Positions 1,536 through 7,041 of a stretch of 7,185 nucleotides of DNA are shown here, piece by piece. The notes below the pieces were generated by a model. That model did not search any database. It saw only the letters and a list, made by a program, of their open reading frames with translations, and was not told the origin of the DNA. Origin of the DNA: Deltaproteobacteria bacterium (lineage in GTDB: Bacteria > DRYD01). Location: assembly GCA_028276365.1 (NCBI GenBank), contig JAPYWL010000056.1, forward strand, positions 1 through 7,185, written 5' to 3'. Positions within the stretch are counted from its first letter, which is position 1, and each line of letters begins with the position of its first letter. The position numbers and the translations under genes were made by a program.

Positions 1536-2636
1536 ATGGAGGCAAAGATTTCAAAGAAAAAATTTGATATATTGGTATTACCTGGAGATGGAGTTGGTCC
1601 TGAAGTAATTAATCAAGCTATTAAAATAATTGATGTTGTCAATGAATTAACTGAAATAGAAATAAGGTATGAATTTGATTATATAGGTGGTGCTTGCTTA
1701 GATAGATATAACCAATCAATAAGAGAGGAAACTTTAAAAAAAGCTTTAAAAGTGGATGCGGTTTTATTAGGTGCTGTTGGTGGACCTAAGTGGGATAAGC
1801 AAAGACCAGAACAAGCTTTATTAACTTTAAGGAAAAGAATGAATGTCTTTGCTAACTTAAGACCTATTAAAGATTATTTTAATAGCAATGTTGATATAAT
1901 GTTTGTTAGGGAATTAACGGGTGGGATATATTTTGGACCTAAAAAATTAATACAAACTAAGAAAGGTTATATTGTTAAGGATGTTTTAGTTTATAAGCAA
2001 GAGGAAATAGAAAGAGTATTAAGAATAGCGTTTGAGTTAGCTAAAAGTAGAAATAAGAATTTAGTAAGTGTAGATAAAGCGAATGTTTTAGCTTCTTCTA
2101 AGTTATGGAGAGAATTAGCTGATAAAATTGCTAAAGACTACCCTGAGGTTAAGTTAAGACATATGTTGGTTGATTCTTTTGCATATAGTTTAATAAAAAA
2201 TCCGAAGAACTTTGATGTAGTTGTTAGTGAGAATTTGTTTGGTGATATTTTAACAGATGAAGCTGCTATATTAGTAAAAAGCTTAGGTATGTTACCTAGT
2301 GCTAGTATAGGATATAAATTAAAGAATGGTTTATATAGGGGGTTATATGAACCTGTACATGGATCTGCTCCTGATATTGCTAATCTTAATATAGCTAACC
2401 CTATTGGAACTATATTATCTGTTTCTCTTATGTTTTATTATTCATTTAATTTACCTTATATCTCTATGTTAATAGAAAAAGCAGTAATTGAGAATATTAA
2501 GCAAGGATTTCTTACTAAAGATATATCTAATACCTCTAATTACAAAACTACTTCTGAAGTAGGAGAAAACATTAAAAATATTCTTAAATCTTTATTATTA
2601 AAGGAATTACAGGTATCTGTAAGGAATTACAAGTAA
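1536..2636 (+). CDS. leuB: 3-isopropylmalate dehydrogenase
   Basis: LeuB catalyses the NAD-dependent oxidation and decarboxylation of 3-isopropylmalate to 2-oxoisocaproate, the third step of leucine synthesis, in the cytoplasm. At 366 residues it has the usual family length, and the landmarks run in order. PGDGVGPEV (16-24) is the N-terminal signature. The substrate arginines are Arg99 (in TLRKR), Arg109 (NLRP) and Arg125 (VRELTGG). The catalytic pair is Tyr132 (GGIYFG) and Lys181 (VDKANVL). Metal-binding aspartates are Asp213 (LVDS), Asp237 and Asp241 (ENLFGDILTDEA). The cofactor loop is LYEPVHGSAPDIA (270-282). The ALLTLRK segment (94-100) fits isopropylmalate rather than isocitrate specificity. 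Homoisocitrate or tartrate dehydrogenase paralogues cannot be fully excluded because leuA, leuC and leuD are not in the window. The ATG follows AAAGGGAG (1523-1530) at five bases. The last ten codons and the stop lie inside a 20-bp tandem repeat array, so the C-terminal tail after about residue 356 is repeat-derived rather than conserved. Confidence 0.95.
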   Translation: MEAKISKKKFDILVLPGDGVGPEVINQAIKIIDVVNELTEIEIRYEFDYIGGACLDRYNQSIREETLKKALKVDAVLLGAVGGPKWDKQRPEQALLTLRKRMNVFANLRPIKDYFNSNVDIMFVRELTGGIYFGPKKLIQTKKGYIVKDVLVYKQEEIERVLRIAFELAKSRNKNLVSVDKANVLASSKLWRELADKIAKDYPEVKLRHMLVDSFAYSLIKNPKNFDVVVSENLFGDILTDEAAILVKSLGMLPSASIGYKLKNGLYRGLYEPVHGSAPDIANLNIANPIGTILSVSLMFYYSFNLPYISMLIEKAVIENIKQGFLTKDISNTSNYKTTSEVGENIKNILKSLLLKELQVSVRNYK

Positions 2637-2680
2637 TTGTAAGGAATTACAGTTAAGTGTAAAGAATTACAAGTGATTAC
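2601..2680 (+). repeat. Four-copy 20-bp tandem array of small palindromes over the leuB stop codon
   Basis: Four contiguous 20-base units start at 2601, 2621, 2641 and 2661. The first ten bases are AAGGAATTAC in three units and AAAGAATTAC in the fourth; the second halves vary (AGGTATCTGT, AAGTAATTGT, AGTTAAGTGT, AAGTGATTAC). The unit junctions give TGTAA-GGAA-TTACA (TGTAA-AGAA-TTACA for unit 4). Across the variable halves, stems form between TTACAG and CTGTAA (2607-2622), TTACAA and TTGTAA (2627-2642), and TTACA and TGTAA (2647-2662). The inner pair changes from G-C in the first hairpin to A-T in the second, which keeps the stem. Units 1 and 2 are translated as the end of LeuB, and its TAA (2634-2636) sits in a hairpin loop. 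Units 3 and 4 fill most of the gap before the HerA-like gene. Possible roles are an mRNA 3'-end stabilising or attenuating structure, a multi-site operator, or a selfish expansion; the sequence does not decide. Confidence 0.85.
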
Positions 2681-2719
2681 TTAAGAGGTGTTTGAATGTA
2701 ATTTGATTTATAATAAAAA

Positions 2720-3946
2720 GTGGTGAGTTTATTGAAAAAGCAAAAAAAGAATATAGATCAAAATTTGTCTTACTTAGATAAAACAATAAGCGATTCAAAA
2801 GAAAATAATTTAACAGGAGATAATTTAAAAGAAGATAATTTTGAAAAAAGTGATTTTGAAAAGAATATAATGTATATTGGAAAAGTTAGTGCTTTTGATG
2901 ATTTCGTATATTTTAATCTAAGATATTCTAAATTCTTAGAATTAACAGATAAGTTATCAAATGGAACATTTTTATTAATTAAAAGAGATAATAAGTTGCT
3001 ATTATCTCAAATAGTTTCTCAAAAAGACCTTTCTATTTATGAAGAGGAAAATAAAATAAAAGCTATAATAACTCATAACGAAGATATTACCTCTACTGAA
3101 AGAGATATATATACTTCCAGAGAATATAAATTAAAAATTTTAGGTACTATTCATAATAATCAGTTTAAAAAAGAAATTGGCTTTTATCCTACTAGATTAG
3201 ATGAAATCCTATTTTTTAATGATTTTAATTTACTTATCAATTATTTTAATCACAAAAACTATAATAATACAGATTATCTAGAAGTTGATTTAGGAAAACT
3301 AAGGAATGGTAATATTATAACTGATTATAATTTAAAAGTTTATCTTAAAGGATTTGTAATATTACTTAATTTAGATAACGAATTTATTACTAAGTTTTTA
3401 AATTCTTTATCTAAAAATATTATAATTTTTACCCCTAATAGAAATTTAGCTTTTAATATAATTAAAAATACTAAATTTAAATTAATAGATTTAAATTCAT
3501 TAAATTTAAATAATTTAAATAAGGATGAGAAATTAAATTTAACAAGTATTAATAATTTTAATTTAGTTTTTTTATATGAAAATATATTGGGATTTGATTG
3601 TATTAGTATAATTAAATTGCTATTAGAGCAGTTTATTAGATTAAATACAGATTCAGTATTGTTTTTAGATGATGATATTAATTATTTTGATGATAAATTT
3701 TTAGCTAAAAATATTTTCTTTAAGCAATTTATTTATAGGTTGAATAATAAGTTATTTATTTACAAAACTTCTTCTTTGGATAAATTTAGTGTTAGTGTAT
3801 TATCTAATGCTAATTATATTATATCTAGAGATATTAGTTTAAATGATTCTAATAAAATTCATAGCACTTTTAATTTAGTAAATTTTTATAGGGGGATTGG
3901 ATTTGAAATTACTAATGGGGAACTAATTTTGTCTTTCGATTATTAA
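2720..3946 (+). CDS. HerA-like (HAS-barrel) protein with degenerate ATPase motifs
   Basis: This 408-residue protein follows the plan of HerA, the hexameric DNA translocase of the FtsK-HerA superfamily that works with nuclease NurA in end resection. A charged low-complexity leader (1-50) carries pentapeptide repeats. A HAS-barrel-like domain follows from MYIGKV (51) to about 145. 'DYLEVDLGKL' (185-194) matches the 'xxIGxL' strand before the P-loop, and 'LKGFVILLN' (209-217) matches 'RHxAILG'. The P-loop GxxGxGKS is replaced by LDNEFITKF (218-226). 'IIIFTPNRN' (234-242) stands where HerA has 'VLIFDxHGEY', and 'VLFLDDDINYF' (313-323) where it has Walker B 'DEAH'. 'KTSSLDKFSVSVLSNANYIISRD' (349-371) replaces the sensor 'SQRPxxLxxxVLSQxNxxIxLR', and the arginine-finger region is absent. 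ATP hydrolysis is therefore unlikely; a structural or regulatory pseudo-enzyme is inferred. No NurA lies nearby. Start: GTG 2720 is the longest frame (an in-frame TAA ends at 2716) but has no ribosome binding site. TTG 2732, five bases after GTGGTGA, may be the true start. Residues 257-275 are Leu/Asn-rich from near-pure A/T codons. Confidence 0.65.
   Translation: MVSLLKKQKKNIDQNLSYLDKTISDSKENNLTGDNLKEDNFEKSDFEKNIMYIGKVSAFDDFVYFNLRYSKFLELTDKLSNGTFLLIKRDNKLLLSQIVSQKDLSIYEEENKIKAIITHNEDITSTERDIYTSREYKLKILGTIHNNQFKKEIGFYPTRLDEILFFNDFNLLINYFNHKNYNNTDYLEVDLGKLRNGNIITDYNLKVYLKGFVILLNLDNEFITKFLNSLSKNIIIFTPNRNLAFNIIKNTKFKLIDLNSLNLNNLNKDEKLNLTSINNFNLVFLYENILGFDCISIIKLLLEQFIRLNTDSVLFLDDDINYFDDKFLAKNIFFKQFIYRLNNKLFIYKTSSLDKFSVSVLSNANYIISRDISLNDSNKIHSTFNLVNFYRGIGFEITNGELILSFDY
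2722..2727 (+). promoter_or_regulatory. Ribosome binding site supporting TTG 2732 as start of the HerA-like gene
   Basis: GGTGAG (within GTGGTGAG, 2720-2727) matches the GGTGA part of the AAGGAGGTGA complement of 16S rRNA and ends four or five bases before TTG 2732. The two upstream GTG codons (2720, 2723) lie inside this motif and have only A/T-rich sequence before them. AGAGGTG at 2684-2690 is about 30 bases away, too far to serve them. The likely protein is thus 404 residues, beginning MKKQKK. Confidence 0.45.
2804..2863 (+). repeat. Four-copy 15-bp in-frame minisatellite in the HerA-like gene
   Basis: Four consecutive 15-base units encode NNLTG, DNLKE, DNFEK and SDFEK (residues 29-48). 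The units share the pattern gataattt(t/a) plus an A/G-rich end. They form part of a hydrophilic, acidic leader that precedes the HAS barrel and is probably disordered. Because the period is a multiple of three, copy-number change would keep the frame. Confidence 0.65.
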
Positions 3947-3991
3947 TATTTTATTTTTATTATTATTTTTAAAGGATAGTTTTTTAAATAT

Positions 3992-3998
3992 GGAGGTG
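3992..3998 (+). promoter_or_regulatory. Ribosome binding site fixing GTG 4008 as the NfeD-like start
   Basis: GGAGGTG lies nine bases before GTG 4008. An in-frame TAG (4005-4007) immediately precedes the GTG, so no earlier start in this frame is possible. The same bases belong to a five-codon open frame, ATG 3990 to TAG 4007 (MEVFI), that ends directly against the GTG. Confidence 0.8.
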
Positions 3999-4007
3999 TT
4001 TATATAG

Positions 4008-4658
4008 GTGATACCAATACTTATATTATTGGGATTAGGGAGTGTTGCTGCTACTGCTTTCTCTAAAATTTCTTTGATTGTTTTGTATTTATCTATTTCT
4101 TTAGGTTTTACGGGATTATTAATGACTCTTATGTTTTTAGGGGTTCTTGATTTAGGCGATTCTGGAGGACATGATGTTGGACATGTAAATGATATTGCAG
4201 CTGATGGTTCTTTAGCTGGTGTAGAAACTGGACATTATGATGCTTCTAATTTATTTATGTTTAGCCCATTTACTTTTTTAACTGCGGGAGCTCTTTTTGG
4301 GGCTTATGGTTTAATAACTCTCCCTTTGTTTAATGTTTTTCCTGCTAATTTAAGAGATTATTTATCTATTTTTACTTCTTTATTTTTAACGGCTTTTAGT
4401 TATATAGTTATTGTTAGAAATTTAATTAAAATGCTAAAATCTACTTCTATGTCTAAATCTAAGTTTGTTTTTGAAGGTAAAGAAGGGGACGTTATTGAAG
4501 CTATATCCGAAAATGGGGTTGGAAAAGTAGCTATAAAGATTGATTCTGAAACTCATTATTTATATGTTAGAACTGAAGATGGAAGACCAATTCCTATAGG
4601 TAAAAGAGTTAGAATAAAAAGAATTGTTGGAGATTATGGATATGTTGAAGAAGTATAA
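4008..4658 (+). CDS. NfeD-like integral membrane protein with C-terminal OB-fold (NfeD1b/YuaF type)
   Basis: NfeD-type proteins are membrane partners of flotillin/SPFH proteins and carry a soluble OB-fold at the C terminus. This 216-residue protein has a hydrophobic start (2-16), a membrane segment at about 22-48, and a polar Gly/Asp/His-rich loop (50-78: GDSGGHDVGH, later GHYDAS). Two further membrane segments follow (about 88-111 and 117-140), then a basic hinge (KMLKSTSMSKSK). The C-terminal domain of about 65 residues begins FEGKEGDVIEAISENGVGKV (155-174) and ends with RVRIKRIVGDYGYVEEV. The FxGxxGxV...GxGxV opening and the closing VxVxxVxGxxxxVxxV pattern are those of the NfeD OB fold. 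The His/Asp-rich loop after the first long membrane helix resembles Bacillus YuaF, whose partner is the flotillin YuaG. No flotillin gene follows here; ispG does. This is not the long NfeD1a form with a serine-protease domain. GTG is the start, fixed by an adjacent stop and GGAGGTG. Confidence 0.8.
   Translation: MIPILILLGLGSVAATAFSKISLIVLYLSISLGFTGLLMTLMFLGVLDLGDSGGHDVGHVNDIAADGSLAGVETGHYDASNLFMFSPFTFLTAGALFGAYGLITLPLFNVFPANLRDYLSIFTSLFLTAFSYIVIVRNLIKMLKSTSMSKSKFVFEGKEGDVIEAISENGVGKVAIKIDSETHYLYVRTEDGRPIPIGKRVRIKRIVGDYGYVEEV
4048..4069 (+). repeat. 22-base exact repeat, copy 2 (inside NfeD-like gene)
   Basis: This is identical to positions 1247-1268 and encodes ATAFSKI at residues 15-21, at the edge of the first membrane segment. 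The match ends sharply on both sides (G/C difference upstream, T/C downstream). Confidence 0.8.
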
Positions 4659-4780: not shown

Positions 4781-5899
4781 ATGCTAAGAAAAAGGAAAAT
4801 TACAAGAGTAGTAAAGATAGGGGATGTATTGATTGGTGGGGGTAATGAGGTTGTTGTTCAGAGTATGGTTAAATGCCCTACTGAGGATGTTGATCAGGTT
4901 TTAAAACAGTTAGATGAGGCAAAGCAAGCGGGAGCTAAAGTTATGAGAGTTGCTGTACCTGATAAAATTGCTGCTTTGGCTTTAAAAGATATAGTATCTA
5001 AAACTCCGTTACCTTTGGTTGCTGATATTCATTTTGATTATAGGCTTGCTTTGATGGCTATTGATGCTGGAATCCATGCTTTAAGAATTAATCCTGGTAA
5101 TATTCTTGATTCTCCTGAAGGTAATATCTCTAGAATTGAAAAATTAGATAAAGTTATTAAAGCTGCTAAAAGTAAAGGAATACCTATTAGGATTGGGGTT
5201 AATAGTGGTTCTTTACATCCTAAGTATCTTGAAAAATATGGATATCCTACTTATGAGGCTTTAGTTGAGTCTGCAATAGATGAGGTTAAGATCCTTGAGA
5301 ATATGGGATTTTTTGATATTAAAATATCTGTAAAGAGTAGTAATGTTGAGGATATGATAAGTGCTTATATGTTACTTAGTGAAAAAGTAGATTATCCTTT
5401 ACATTTAGGGGTTACTGAATCTGGTAGTGGCTTAAGTGGATATGTTAAAAGTTCTATTGGAATTGGGACTTTATTATATAATGGGATTGGTGATACTATT
5501 AGAGTTTCTTTAACTAGCTCAGTTAGTGAAGAGATAAAAGTTGCTTATGAAATCCTTAAAGCTTTAGGATATTATAAAAGAGGGGTGGAATTAATAAGTT
5601 GTCCTACTTGTGGTAGAATTGAAGTAAATTTATTTGATTTAGTTGAAAAGGTTAAGAAGGAGGTTGAAAATATTGAAGAAAATATAACTGTAGCTGTTAT
5701 GGGATGTGTGGTTAATGGTCCTGGGGAAGCTCGGAAAGCTGATATTGCGGTTGTTGGAGGAAAAGGAAAAGGAATTATTTATAGAAAAGGTAAAATGATT
5801 AAAGTAGCCAAGGAAAATGAAATAATAGATGCTTTTAAGGAAGTTTTAGAACAAGTAATAACTGAAAAAAATGGAATCTTACAAAAAACTAATTCATAA
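4781..5899 (+). CDS. ispG: 4-hydroxy-3-methylbut-2-en-1-yl diphosphate synthase (IspG/GcpE)
   Basis: IspG reductively opens 2-C-methyl-erythritol 2,4-cyclodiphosphate to HMBPP, the penultimate step of the MEP isoprenoid pathway, using a 4Fe-4S cluster and electrons from ferredoxin or flavodoxin. The 372-residue protein is the short two-domain bacterial form. The TIM barrel covers about 1-260: VQSM (26-29), RVAVPD (56-61), LVADIHFDYRLA (79-90), ALRINPGNI (100-108), RIGVNSGSL (137-145) and LHLGVTESG (207-215). The cluster domain follows, with Cys274 and Cys277 (SCPTCGR), Cys309 (VMGCVVNGPGE) and the fourth ligand Glu316. All catalytic features are present. One oddity is VKCPTED (30-36), where most members have a TNTxT-type sequence; it brings an extra Cys32 near the substrate phosphate region. 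ATG 4781 lies five bases after a near-complete Shine-Dalgarno, AAGAAGGTGAT. The gene has higher GC than the first and fourth genes. The gap to mrp is only 50 bases, so co-transcription is likely, and Mrp could supply Fe-S clusters. Confidence 0.97.
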   Translation: MLRKRKITRVVKIGDVLIGGGNEVVVQSMVKCPTEDVDQVLKQLDEAKQAGAKVMRVAVPDKIAALALKDIVSKTPLPLVADIHFDYRLALMAIDAGIHALRINPGNILDSPEGNISRIEKLDKVIKAAKSKGIPIRIGVNSGSLHPKYLEKYGYPTYEALVESAIDEVKILENMGFFDIKISVKSSNVEDMISAYMLLSEKVDYPLHLGVTESGSGLSGYVKSSIGIGTLLYNGIGDTIRVSLTSSVSEEIKVAYEILKALGYYKRGVELISCPTCGRIEVNLFDLVEKVKKEVENIEENITVAVMGCVVNGPGEARKADIAVVGGKGKGIIYRKGKMIKVAKENEIIDAFKEVLEQVITEKNGILQKTNS

Positions 5900-5949: not shown

Positions 5950-7041
5950 ATGGATGAAATAACAAGAGAAAAAGTATTATATGCTTTAAAGGGTATAAAA
6001 GATCCCACTATAGATAGGGAATTAATTTCTTTAAATGCTATTGAAATACAGCTAGATAATAATTTTGTTAAGTTAGTAGTTCATTTAAAGAGAGATGCTA
6101 TTAAATATAAAGATGAGATAAATCAGAAAATAGAGCAAAAATTGAGAAATGCTTTTGGAAATAATTTAAAAGGAATTGAAATTGAATTTAATGAAATAGA
6201 AAATTATCAAGTTATCAAGAAAAAATTAGAAACTATTTTTTTAAAAATTGATAATAAAAGGAAAGCTAATTTAGGTTATGTTATTGCTATAACGAGTGGT
6301 AAAGGGGGCGTAGGGAAATCTTCTATTGCTGTAAATTTAGCTTATAGTTTGTTAAAATTGGGTTATAAAGTGGGGTTATTAGATGGAGATATTTATGGAC
6401 CTTCTATACCTACTGTATTAAATTTAGAAGAAAAAATTTTAACTGTTGAAAATAATCTAATAAAACCACTAGAAAAGGATGGATTAAAGCTAGCATCGAT
6501 AGGGTTTATGCTTCCTAGTGTTGATACTCCGTTAATTTGGAGAGGACCGATGTTACATAAAGCTATTAATGAGTTGGTTAATGAAGTGGATTGGGGGGAT
6601 TTGAATTTTTTAGTAGTAGATTTACCTCCAGGTACTGGTGATGCTATTTTAAGTTTAAATAGTACTGTTAGTATAAGTGGAGCTATTGTAATAACTACGG
6701 GGCAAAGAATAGCAAATGTTGATGTTATGAAAAATATTAATATGTTAAAATCATTGAATATTCCTATTTTGGGGTTGGTAGTTAATATGGCTTATTTTGT
6801 TTGCCCTAATTCAAATGAAAGGATCTATTTATTTGGAAAAAATAGATTTAAGGAATTGTTAGATAAATATGAAATAGACTTATTAGTTGAGATCCCATTT
6901 AAACTGGATTTAGCCAATGATATAGAAGAGGGATTACCTACCTTAGCTAAAAATAATCCCGATGAAGAATTACTAAATGTTTTTAATATATTAAGTAATA
7001 ATATCGTAAAGAAATTAAATTTAATTAGATTAAAAGCATAG
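5950..7041 (+). CDS. mrp: Mrp/ApbC-family P-loop Fe-S carrier protein with altered CxxC motif
   Basis: Mrp/ApbC proteins are cytoplasmic dimeric MinD-like ATPases that bind a 4Fe-4S cluster between subunits and deliver it to target enzymes. The 363 residues comprise an N-terminal DUF59/MIP18-like domain (1-85; IKDPTIDRELISLNAI at 16-31) and the P-loop domain. That domain has deviant Walker A SGKGGVGKSS (116-125), LLDGDIYGPSIP (143-154) as the A' region, WRGPMLHKA (197-205), and switch II DLPPGTGD (224-231). The usual Cys-Pro-x-Cys ligand motif reads Cys285-Pro-Asn-Ser288, so the second cysteine is lost. The normal 'TPQ' after the fourth strand is TGQ (250-252), and the 'FGxGGG' loop is FGKNRF (295-300). 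ATP binding should be intact; cluster binding through two cysteines per subunit is doubtful. ATG 5950 follows AAGGAGG (5935-5941) at eight bases. It lies 50 bases downstream of ispG, whose product needs a 4Fe-4S cluster. Confidence 0.92.
   Translation: MDEITREKVLYALKGIKDPTIDRELISLNAIEIQLDNNFVKLVVHLKRDAIKYKDEINQKIEQKLRNAFGNNLKGIEIEFNEIENYQVIKKKLETIFLKIDNKRKANLGYVIAITSGKGGVGKSSIAVNLAYSLLKLGYKVGLLDGDIYGPSIPTVLNLEEKILTVENNLIKPLEKDGLKLASIGFMLPSVDTPLIWRGPMLHKAINELVNEVDWGDLNFLVVDLPPGTGDAILSLNSTVSISGAIVITTGQRIANVDVMKNINMLKSLNIPILGLVVNMAYFVCPNSNERIYLFGKNRFKELLDKYEIDLLVEIPFKLDLANDIEEGLPTLAKNNPDEELLNVFNILSNNIVKKLNLIRLKA

Follow-up and report, generated by a model that had tools for sequence, protein, structure and literature searches.

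HerA is a DNA-pumping ring protein, and several classes of ATPase are known to include pseudo-enzymes whose P-loop has eroded. The features described for HerA include the working Walker residues K175, T176, D487 and E488 of drHerA, which have their equivalents in the HerA resident in the genomes considered below, a helix-bundle domain inserted in the core, and a HAS barrel that docks NurA (PMC9960219). In other bacteria, a stand-alone HAS-barrel protein of 190-200 residues (PF09378), here called S, is encoded directly upstream of herA. S was present in all nine genomes having that HerA type, next to herA in at least five of them; among the examples L095:7864-8445, L098:8202-8774 and L100:8631-9230, two have NurA - HAS protein - HerA in this order, followed by Mre11 and Rad50. 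A stand-alone HAS protein between nurA and herA thus provides a precedent for ATPase-less HAS-type proteins beside HerA. Our literature search returned no study of the role of S. Nor did it return, among open papers, any report of a dead HerA kept lineage-wide beside a live one, and as far as our sources show, a regulatory dead HerA subunit is undescribed in any DNA-end-resection system. Here we describe a protein, named X, which is best explained, with moderate confidence, as a pseudo-ATPase of HerA descent that has been retained for docking or as a scaffold, perhaps serving the resident HerA.

The X gene and its family

The window analysed here is a whole contig of 7,185 nucleotides, AT-rich and bacterial (C25 of genome G000, the window's genome). 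The gene of X, a probable HerA-derived pseudo-ATPase of 408 aa, occupies positions 2720-3946 of the plus strand, where the frame is open over 408 codons from GTG. The homologue in the sister genome (G001) has 407 aa and is 62-63% identical. The claim of an intact frame of more than 400 codons, made in a sequence-only reading of this DNA, was borne out. A TTG at 2732 sits four to five bases after GGTGAG and may be the true start. A frameshifted active HerA was ruled out by the intact frame and its equal length in the sister genome. All the neighbouring genes also lie on the plus strand. Ahead of X there are an open 172-aa frame, a gene at 580-1446 and leuB (1536-2636). The product of 580-1446 is a membrane-linked, methyltransferase-like protein that has hydrophobic segments at its N-terminal end and matches DOT1/methyltransferase weakly (E about 0.001). 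Behind X come the gene of an NfeD-like membrane protein (4008-4658), then ispG (4781-5899) and the gene of an Mrp/NUBPL ATPase (5950-7041). About four imperfect repeats, with a unit like GTAAGGAATTACAAGT, cover the leuB 3' end and the stretch just beyond it, ahead of X (2598-2680). In the sister genome, a gene for an 812-aa protein lies between the homologue of 580-1446 and leuB.

The placement of X between leuB and the NfeD-like gene is that of the window's genus (g1). In a second genus (g2), X adjoins an HtrA-like protease gene in the three loci whose wider region was examined, as it does in G006, from the other family; loci with this neighbourhood are L012:8482-10429, L013:1776-3794, L014:4159-6178 and L015:3-2327. 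A DUF503-like gene also stands next to X in g2, while the window's genus has neither an HtrA-like nor a DUF503-like neighbour, and in G004 a truncated HtrA-like frame comes after X. The X gene is not adjacent to herA, mre11 or any nuclease gene.

Searched with a profile, 386 genomes yielded X in each of the seven from the order; the remaining 379 gave no member, two spurious short frames aside. Candidate relatives beyond the order (in G044, G127 and G241) turned out to be short, interrupted or unrelated frames. Among the genomes covered, the family is thus restricted to a single deep bacterial lineage, in which it is kept with an intact frame in seven genomes spanning two families of one order. 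Outside the window's genome and its sister, the homologues in the other five genomes are remote, sharing about 30% identity that is mostly limited to 110 N-terminal residues. The lengths in the family are 408, 407, 360, 303, 300, 273 and 268 aa, and since most of the other members have 268-303 aa, much of the core appears to be dispensable. The conserved core of the family reads IGKV...GxFLLI...ILSQIVxxxDV...EENIRxSIxxxxDITSTERDIYxxxExKLKxL...RLxxVxFF. Comparison of X with Pfam, NCBIfam, PADLOC and PHROGs gave nothing above noise; a phage or defence origin was considered and rejected, there being no viral relatives and no PADLOC or PHROG match. X has no match to DUF87/HerA profiles either, and the profile libraries never label it HerA, a weak test given that the true HerA of the same genome is also without a Pfam match at E 0.01. 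As far as the sources searched show, the family is undescribed.

Selection and the former nucleotide site

What does selection preserve in X? We compared the window with the sister genome using NG86; the segments are short, and the dN/dS values are hence rough. For X overall dN/dS is 0.33, compared with 0.05-0.27 for the neighbours and HerA. This value, together with the existence of the sister homologue, indicates that X is under selection as a protein and is no chance open reading frame. The constraint is unevenly spread. The N-terminal tail (residues 1-51; 2720-2872, plus strand, as are all segments below) is charged, of low complexity and not conserved, with 51% identity over alignable codons and dN/dS of 0.71, and it is missing in the g2 members. 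The HAS-barrel-like N-terminal domain (residues 52-165; 2873-3214) is the best conserved part of the family (IGKV..ITSTERDIYxxxExKxK) and contains invariant columns; it is 84% identical to the sister protein, with dN/dS of 0.19. Identity falls from 84% in this domain to 42% in residues 166-280 (Fisher P 2e-11), and the linker has a dN/dS of 0.81. A strand hairpin ahead of the former P-loop (residues 187-209, EVDLGKLRN..LKVYL; 3278-3346), modelled as strands 187-196 and 199-209, is followed by the former P-loop strand and helix (residues 212-230, FVILLNLDNEFITKFLNSL; 3353-3409), where Walker A has been lost and the model places a helix at 220-229 with pLDDT of about 80. Over the former P-loop (residues 207-232) dN/dS is 0.83, that is, near-neutral. 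The former Walker B strand (residues 313-323, VLFLDDDINYF; 3656-3688) corresponds to a model strand at 312-317, and its LDDDINYF is identical in the sister. The most constrained stretch (residues 324-353; 3689-3778), with a model helix at 332-340 and a strand at 345-349, leads from the former Walker B to the former sensor strand and its KTSS end; in residues 325-353 identity is 89-90% and dN/dS about 0.05. The HerA-like terminal segment (residues 360-404, VLSNANYIISRDISLND ... NGELIL; 3797-3931) matches in register the LSQMTNKIILKIIEPTD ... VGEAIIIG of SsoHerA. This pattern of dN/dS suggests that the protein is kept while its former nucleotide site drifts freely. The suggested check for constraint on the dead motifs thus came out positive between the former Walker B and the sensor (325-353) and negative at the former P-loop, which is nearly free to change.

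These values bear on the notion that X is a decaying herA paralogue heading for loss. Such decay would fit the nearly free evolution of the former P-loop and linker, the shorter X of other genera and the real herA pseudogene that the sister genome carries as a separate copy, but the frame is intact in seven genomes of two families and dN/dS falls to 0.19 for the N-terminal domain and to 0.05 for residues 325-353. The selection pattern largely refutes this alternative, which we regard as very improbable.

All the segments from which the loss of nucleotide handling had been read are present in X: LDNEFITKF, VLFLDDDINYF (313-323), KTSS (349-352) and VLSNANYII (360-368). The Walker A pattern [AG]xxxxGK[ST] occurs in none of the seven family members and in none of the six frames of window positions 2601-4000. 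The P-loop loss was therefore confirmed family-wide, and a P-loop elsewhere in the protein or in another frame was dismissed by the same pattern search. The broader statement that every nucleotide-handling motif has been replaced holds for Walker A, but less so for the Walker B strand, which is partly kept in the window's genus: compared with hhhhDE, VLFLDDD there retains a hydrophobic strand ending in Asp, with the Glu replaced. The other five members have no strand of the VLFLDDD type at the corresponding place. Being without Walker A, X should be unable to act as a HerA-type motor.

Likeness of X to HerA

An AlphaFold2 model of X, built from two sequences only, has a mean pLDDT of 45 and a pTM of 0.44, while in much of residues 221-260 and 281-320 the block means lie at about 74-84. 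Its strands and helices alternate in the order proposed by the sequence-only reading, with a strand and a helix (220-229) at the former P-loop and further strands at VLFLDDD (312-317), at the former sensor (345-349) and at NYIIS (365-369). Foldseek returned VirB4 8rtb as the best match (E 0.012, probability 0.98) and nothing below E 0.01. After re-ranking with VIA-align 2, VirB4 8rtd stood at the top (Z 8.8, 4.5 Å over 190 residues), and the HerA entries 8ziq, 4d2i and 8zis reached Z of 8.1, 8.1 and 8.0, a level which, by the program's own note, can reflect a common arrangement. Of the 19 best re-ranked PDB entries, 17 are members of the FtsK-HerA superfamily (HerA, VirB4 and B204, the last with Z 7.2), the other two being Rho; a viral structure library adds the A32 and STIV packaging ATPases as neighbours. 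Whole-chain alignments of X with HerA have a high rmsd of 9-11 Å, which is what a misplaced N-terminal domain, itself badly modelled, would produce. In the alignment with 4d2i, model residues 78-391 fall onto chain residues 22-432, with NGTFLLI of X on LGTYVVL of HerA and LSNANYIISRDISLND within one residue of HerA LSQMTNKIILKIIEPTD, assuming that the entry numbering equals that of the chain sequence. This structural register and the independent sequence-motif register, the one proposed in the sequence-only reading, coincide at both ends. A pairwise sequence comparison of the C-terminal half of the window protein with HerA gave no signal (Z 0.04). The helix-bundle insert of the HerA core is missing from the model, and 408 aa, compared with about 560, leave no room for it. 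Judging from the model, a RecA-like core of FtsK-HerA type in the C-terminal half is supported but not proven.

For the N-terminal half, an isolated domain model failed (pLDDT 34) and was discarded, and the case for a HAS barrel consequently rests on sequence. Alignments of X with HerA profiles by hhalign gave P of 0.01-0.05, at the edge of noise, repeatedly on a collinear diagonal (X 47-173 on HerA 47-170; the G006 member 31-197 on 21-180); by the same measure two real HerA groups gave 7e-5, and stand-alone HAS proteins against HerA 1e-4. Searching 177,635 PDB sequences with the N-terminal profile of X returned five at E up to 10, including HerA 8ziq (E 0.26, in register), with inteins at better E-values than HerA. 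The N-terminal part of X scored above all 736 shuffles against one HerA (L085), and pairwise Z against HerA N-termini was 1.0-3.4 in six of the seven members and -0.1 in the window protein itself; a reversed-HerA control, run on four of the seven, stayed at about 0. We give little weight to a panel comparison of HerA with unrelated proteins (P 0.005), as the panel members are non-independent and some of them had been fetched as hits. X has no match to PF09378, and taken alone it has no significant profile match to HerA. Together, the collinear matches weakly suggest that the N-terminal domain is a HAS barrel. The proposal that X follows the order of HerA along its whole length is thus supported in part, by the model and the VIA-align 2 register for a RecA-like C-terminal core, and more weakly, by collinear profile matches, for the barrel.

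X might instead be an unrelated, fast-evolving protein with an N-terminal beta part and a Rossmann-like domain, whose likeness to HerA stems from low-complexity AT-rich sequence and common alpha/beta folds. The lack of a significant match in the Pfam, NCBIfam, PHROGs and PADLOC libraries, the low confidence of the model and the inteins that outrank HerA by E-value among the PDB profile matches are all in keeping with this, but the enrichment of the HerA superfamily among re-ranked structures, the coincident registers and a HAS register collinear in several comparisons speak against it. We give it a low probability, and consider that X probably descends from the HerA lineage.

HerA in the same genomes and comparison with known systems

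If X cannot itself pump DNA, with what might it work? An intact herA was looked for in the same genomes, and all seven of the order were found to encode one full-length HerA of the Deinococcus type (profile E 6e-131 to 7f6d), whose Walker lysine and DE are preserved, as GxSGxATKT and VIDE, in the sequences read out. A Mre11/SbcD match was present in all seven, above cut-off in six. A search for NurA with PF09376 gave nothing over cut-off in the seven genomes, compared with a control search positive in seven of 14 genomes. A role of X as a NurA-binding regulator, which had been put forward earlier, is therefore disfavoured; the two roles proposed along with it, a subunit of a mixed ring and a scaffold, are still candidates. 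The presence of HerA and Mre11 without detectable NurA in all seven (G000-G006) suggests that HerA may act there with another nuclease or alone. The idea that X is a close paralogue of its genome's own HerA was rejected, as a profile comparison gave nothing and X leans toward the other bacterial HerA type. The sister genome carries a second herA (L152:883-2303, contig C42), a pseudogene with many stops and frameshifts, whose longest piece is about 50% identical to intact HerA. In the window's genome, L151 (at the end of contig C87) and L042 (contig C89) share the herA region with 94.8% DNA identity, which suggests a strain mixture in the assembly.

In the mechanism that we propose, the Walker A loop would have disappeared, together with the helix-bundle insert, from a HerA-lineage protein with a HAS-like barrel and a shortened RecA-like core. 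Unable to bind ATP in the manner of HerA, X would not pump DNA itself, and would have been retained for docking or as a scaffold, without catalysis. The surfaces of X under constraint, namely the N-terminal domain and residues 325-353, may pack against a partner, for which the intact HerA ring is the leading candidate, the packing being modelled on HAS-type domains docking NurA on HerA. That X works through the resident HerA is a tentative proposal, and on present evidence rather doubtful; both the partner and the action are inferred. A stronger version, in which X is an order-wide pseudo-translocase inserting into or capping the resident HerA ring as a regulatory dead subunit, appears unlikely.

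A further alternative is that X is a HAS-barrel adaptor and kin of the stand-alone HAS proteins, its ATPase-free state being ancestral and its alpha/beta tail acquired separately. Free-standing HAS proteins of 190-200 aa do exist, in the order NurA - S - HerA - Mre11 - Rad50, and the N-terminal domain of X is conserved across the order while the tails vary (268 to 408 aa in total). The G006 member is also collinear with S (hhalign P 0.076). However, the profiles of X and S match no better than shuffles, with an hhalign P of 0.43, so that membership of X in the stand-alone HAS family finds no profile signal; the tail of the window protein is predicted to have RecA order and HerA/VirB4 neighbours; and S was not found in the order of X. 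We consider this adaptor origin unlikely, slightly more so than an unrelated protein. If a HerA-derived scaffold is confirmed, X would be evidence that the HAS/RecA scaffold can serve a purpose in the absence of ATP, and a natural clue to the job and partners of HerA in NurA-less bacteria.

Compared with HerA (D. radiodurans type 7f6d; Sulfolobus 4d2i), X probably shares the domain order, a HAS-like barrel followed by a RecA-like core, and in the model has its strand order and C-terminal LSxxxN...D...GE segment in register. It differs from HerA in having no Walker A and, in one genus, at most the Asp of Walker B, in its length of 408 aa or less compared with about 560 aa and thus no room for the helix-bundle insert, in its genomes, where no NurA partner was detected, and in showing no significant sequence match to HerA. 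The VirB4/TrwK and A32/B204 ATPases are the closest structural neighbours of the predicted RecA-like half; unlike X, they are active ATPases, while X has no P-loop and another N-terminal domain. With the stand-alone HAS proteins (PF09378), finally, X would share a HAS-type N-terminal domain without a working ATPase and the presence of an intact HerA in the same genomes; S, however, has 190-200 aa, a helical-looking tail and a place mostly beside HerA; the tail of X, in contrast, is predicted to be RecA-like, and the X gene lies elsewhere.
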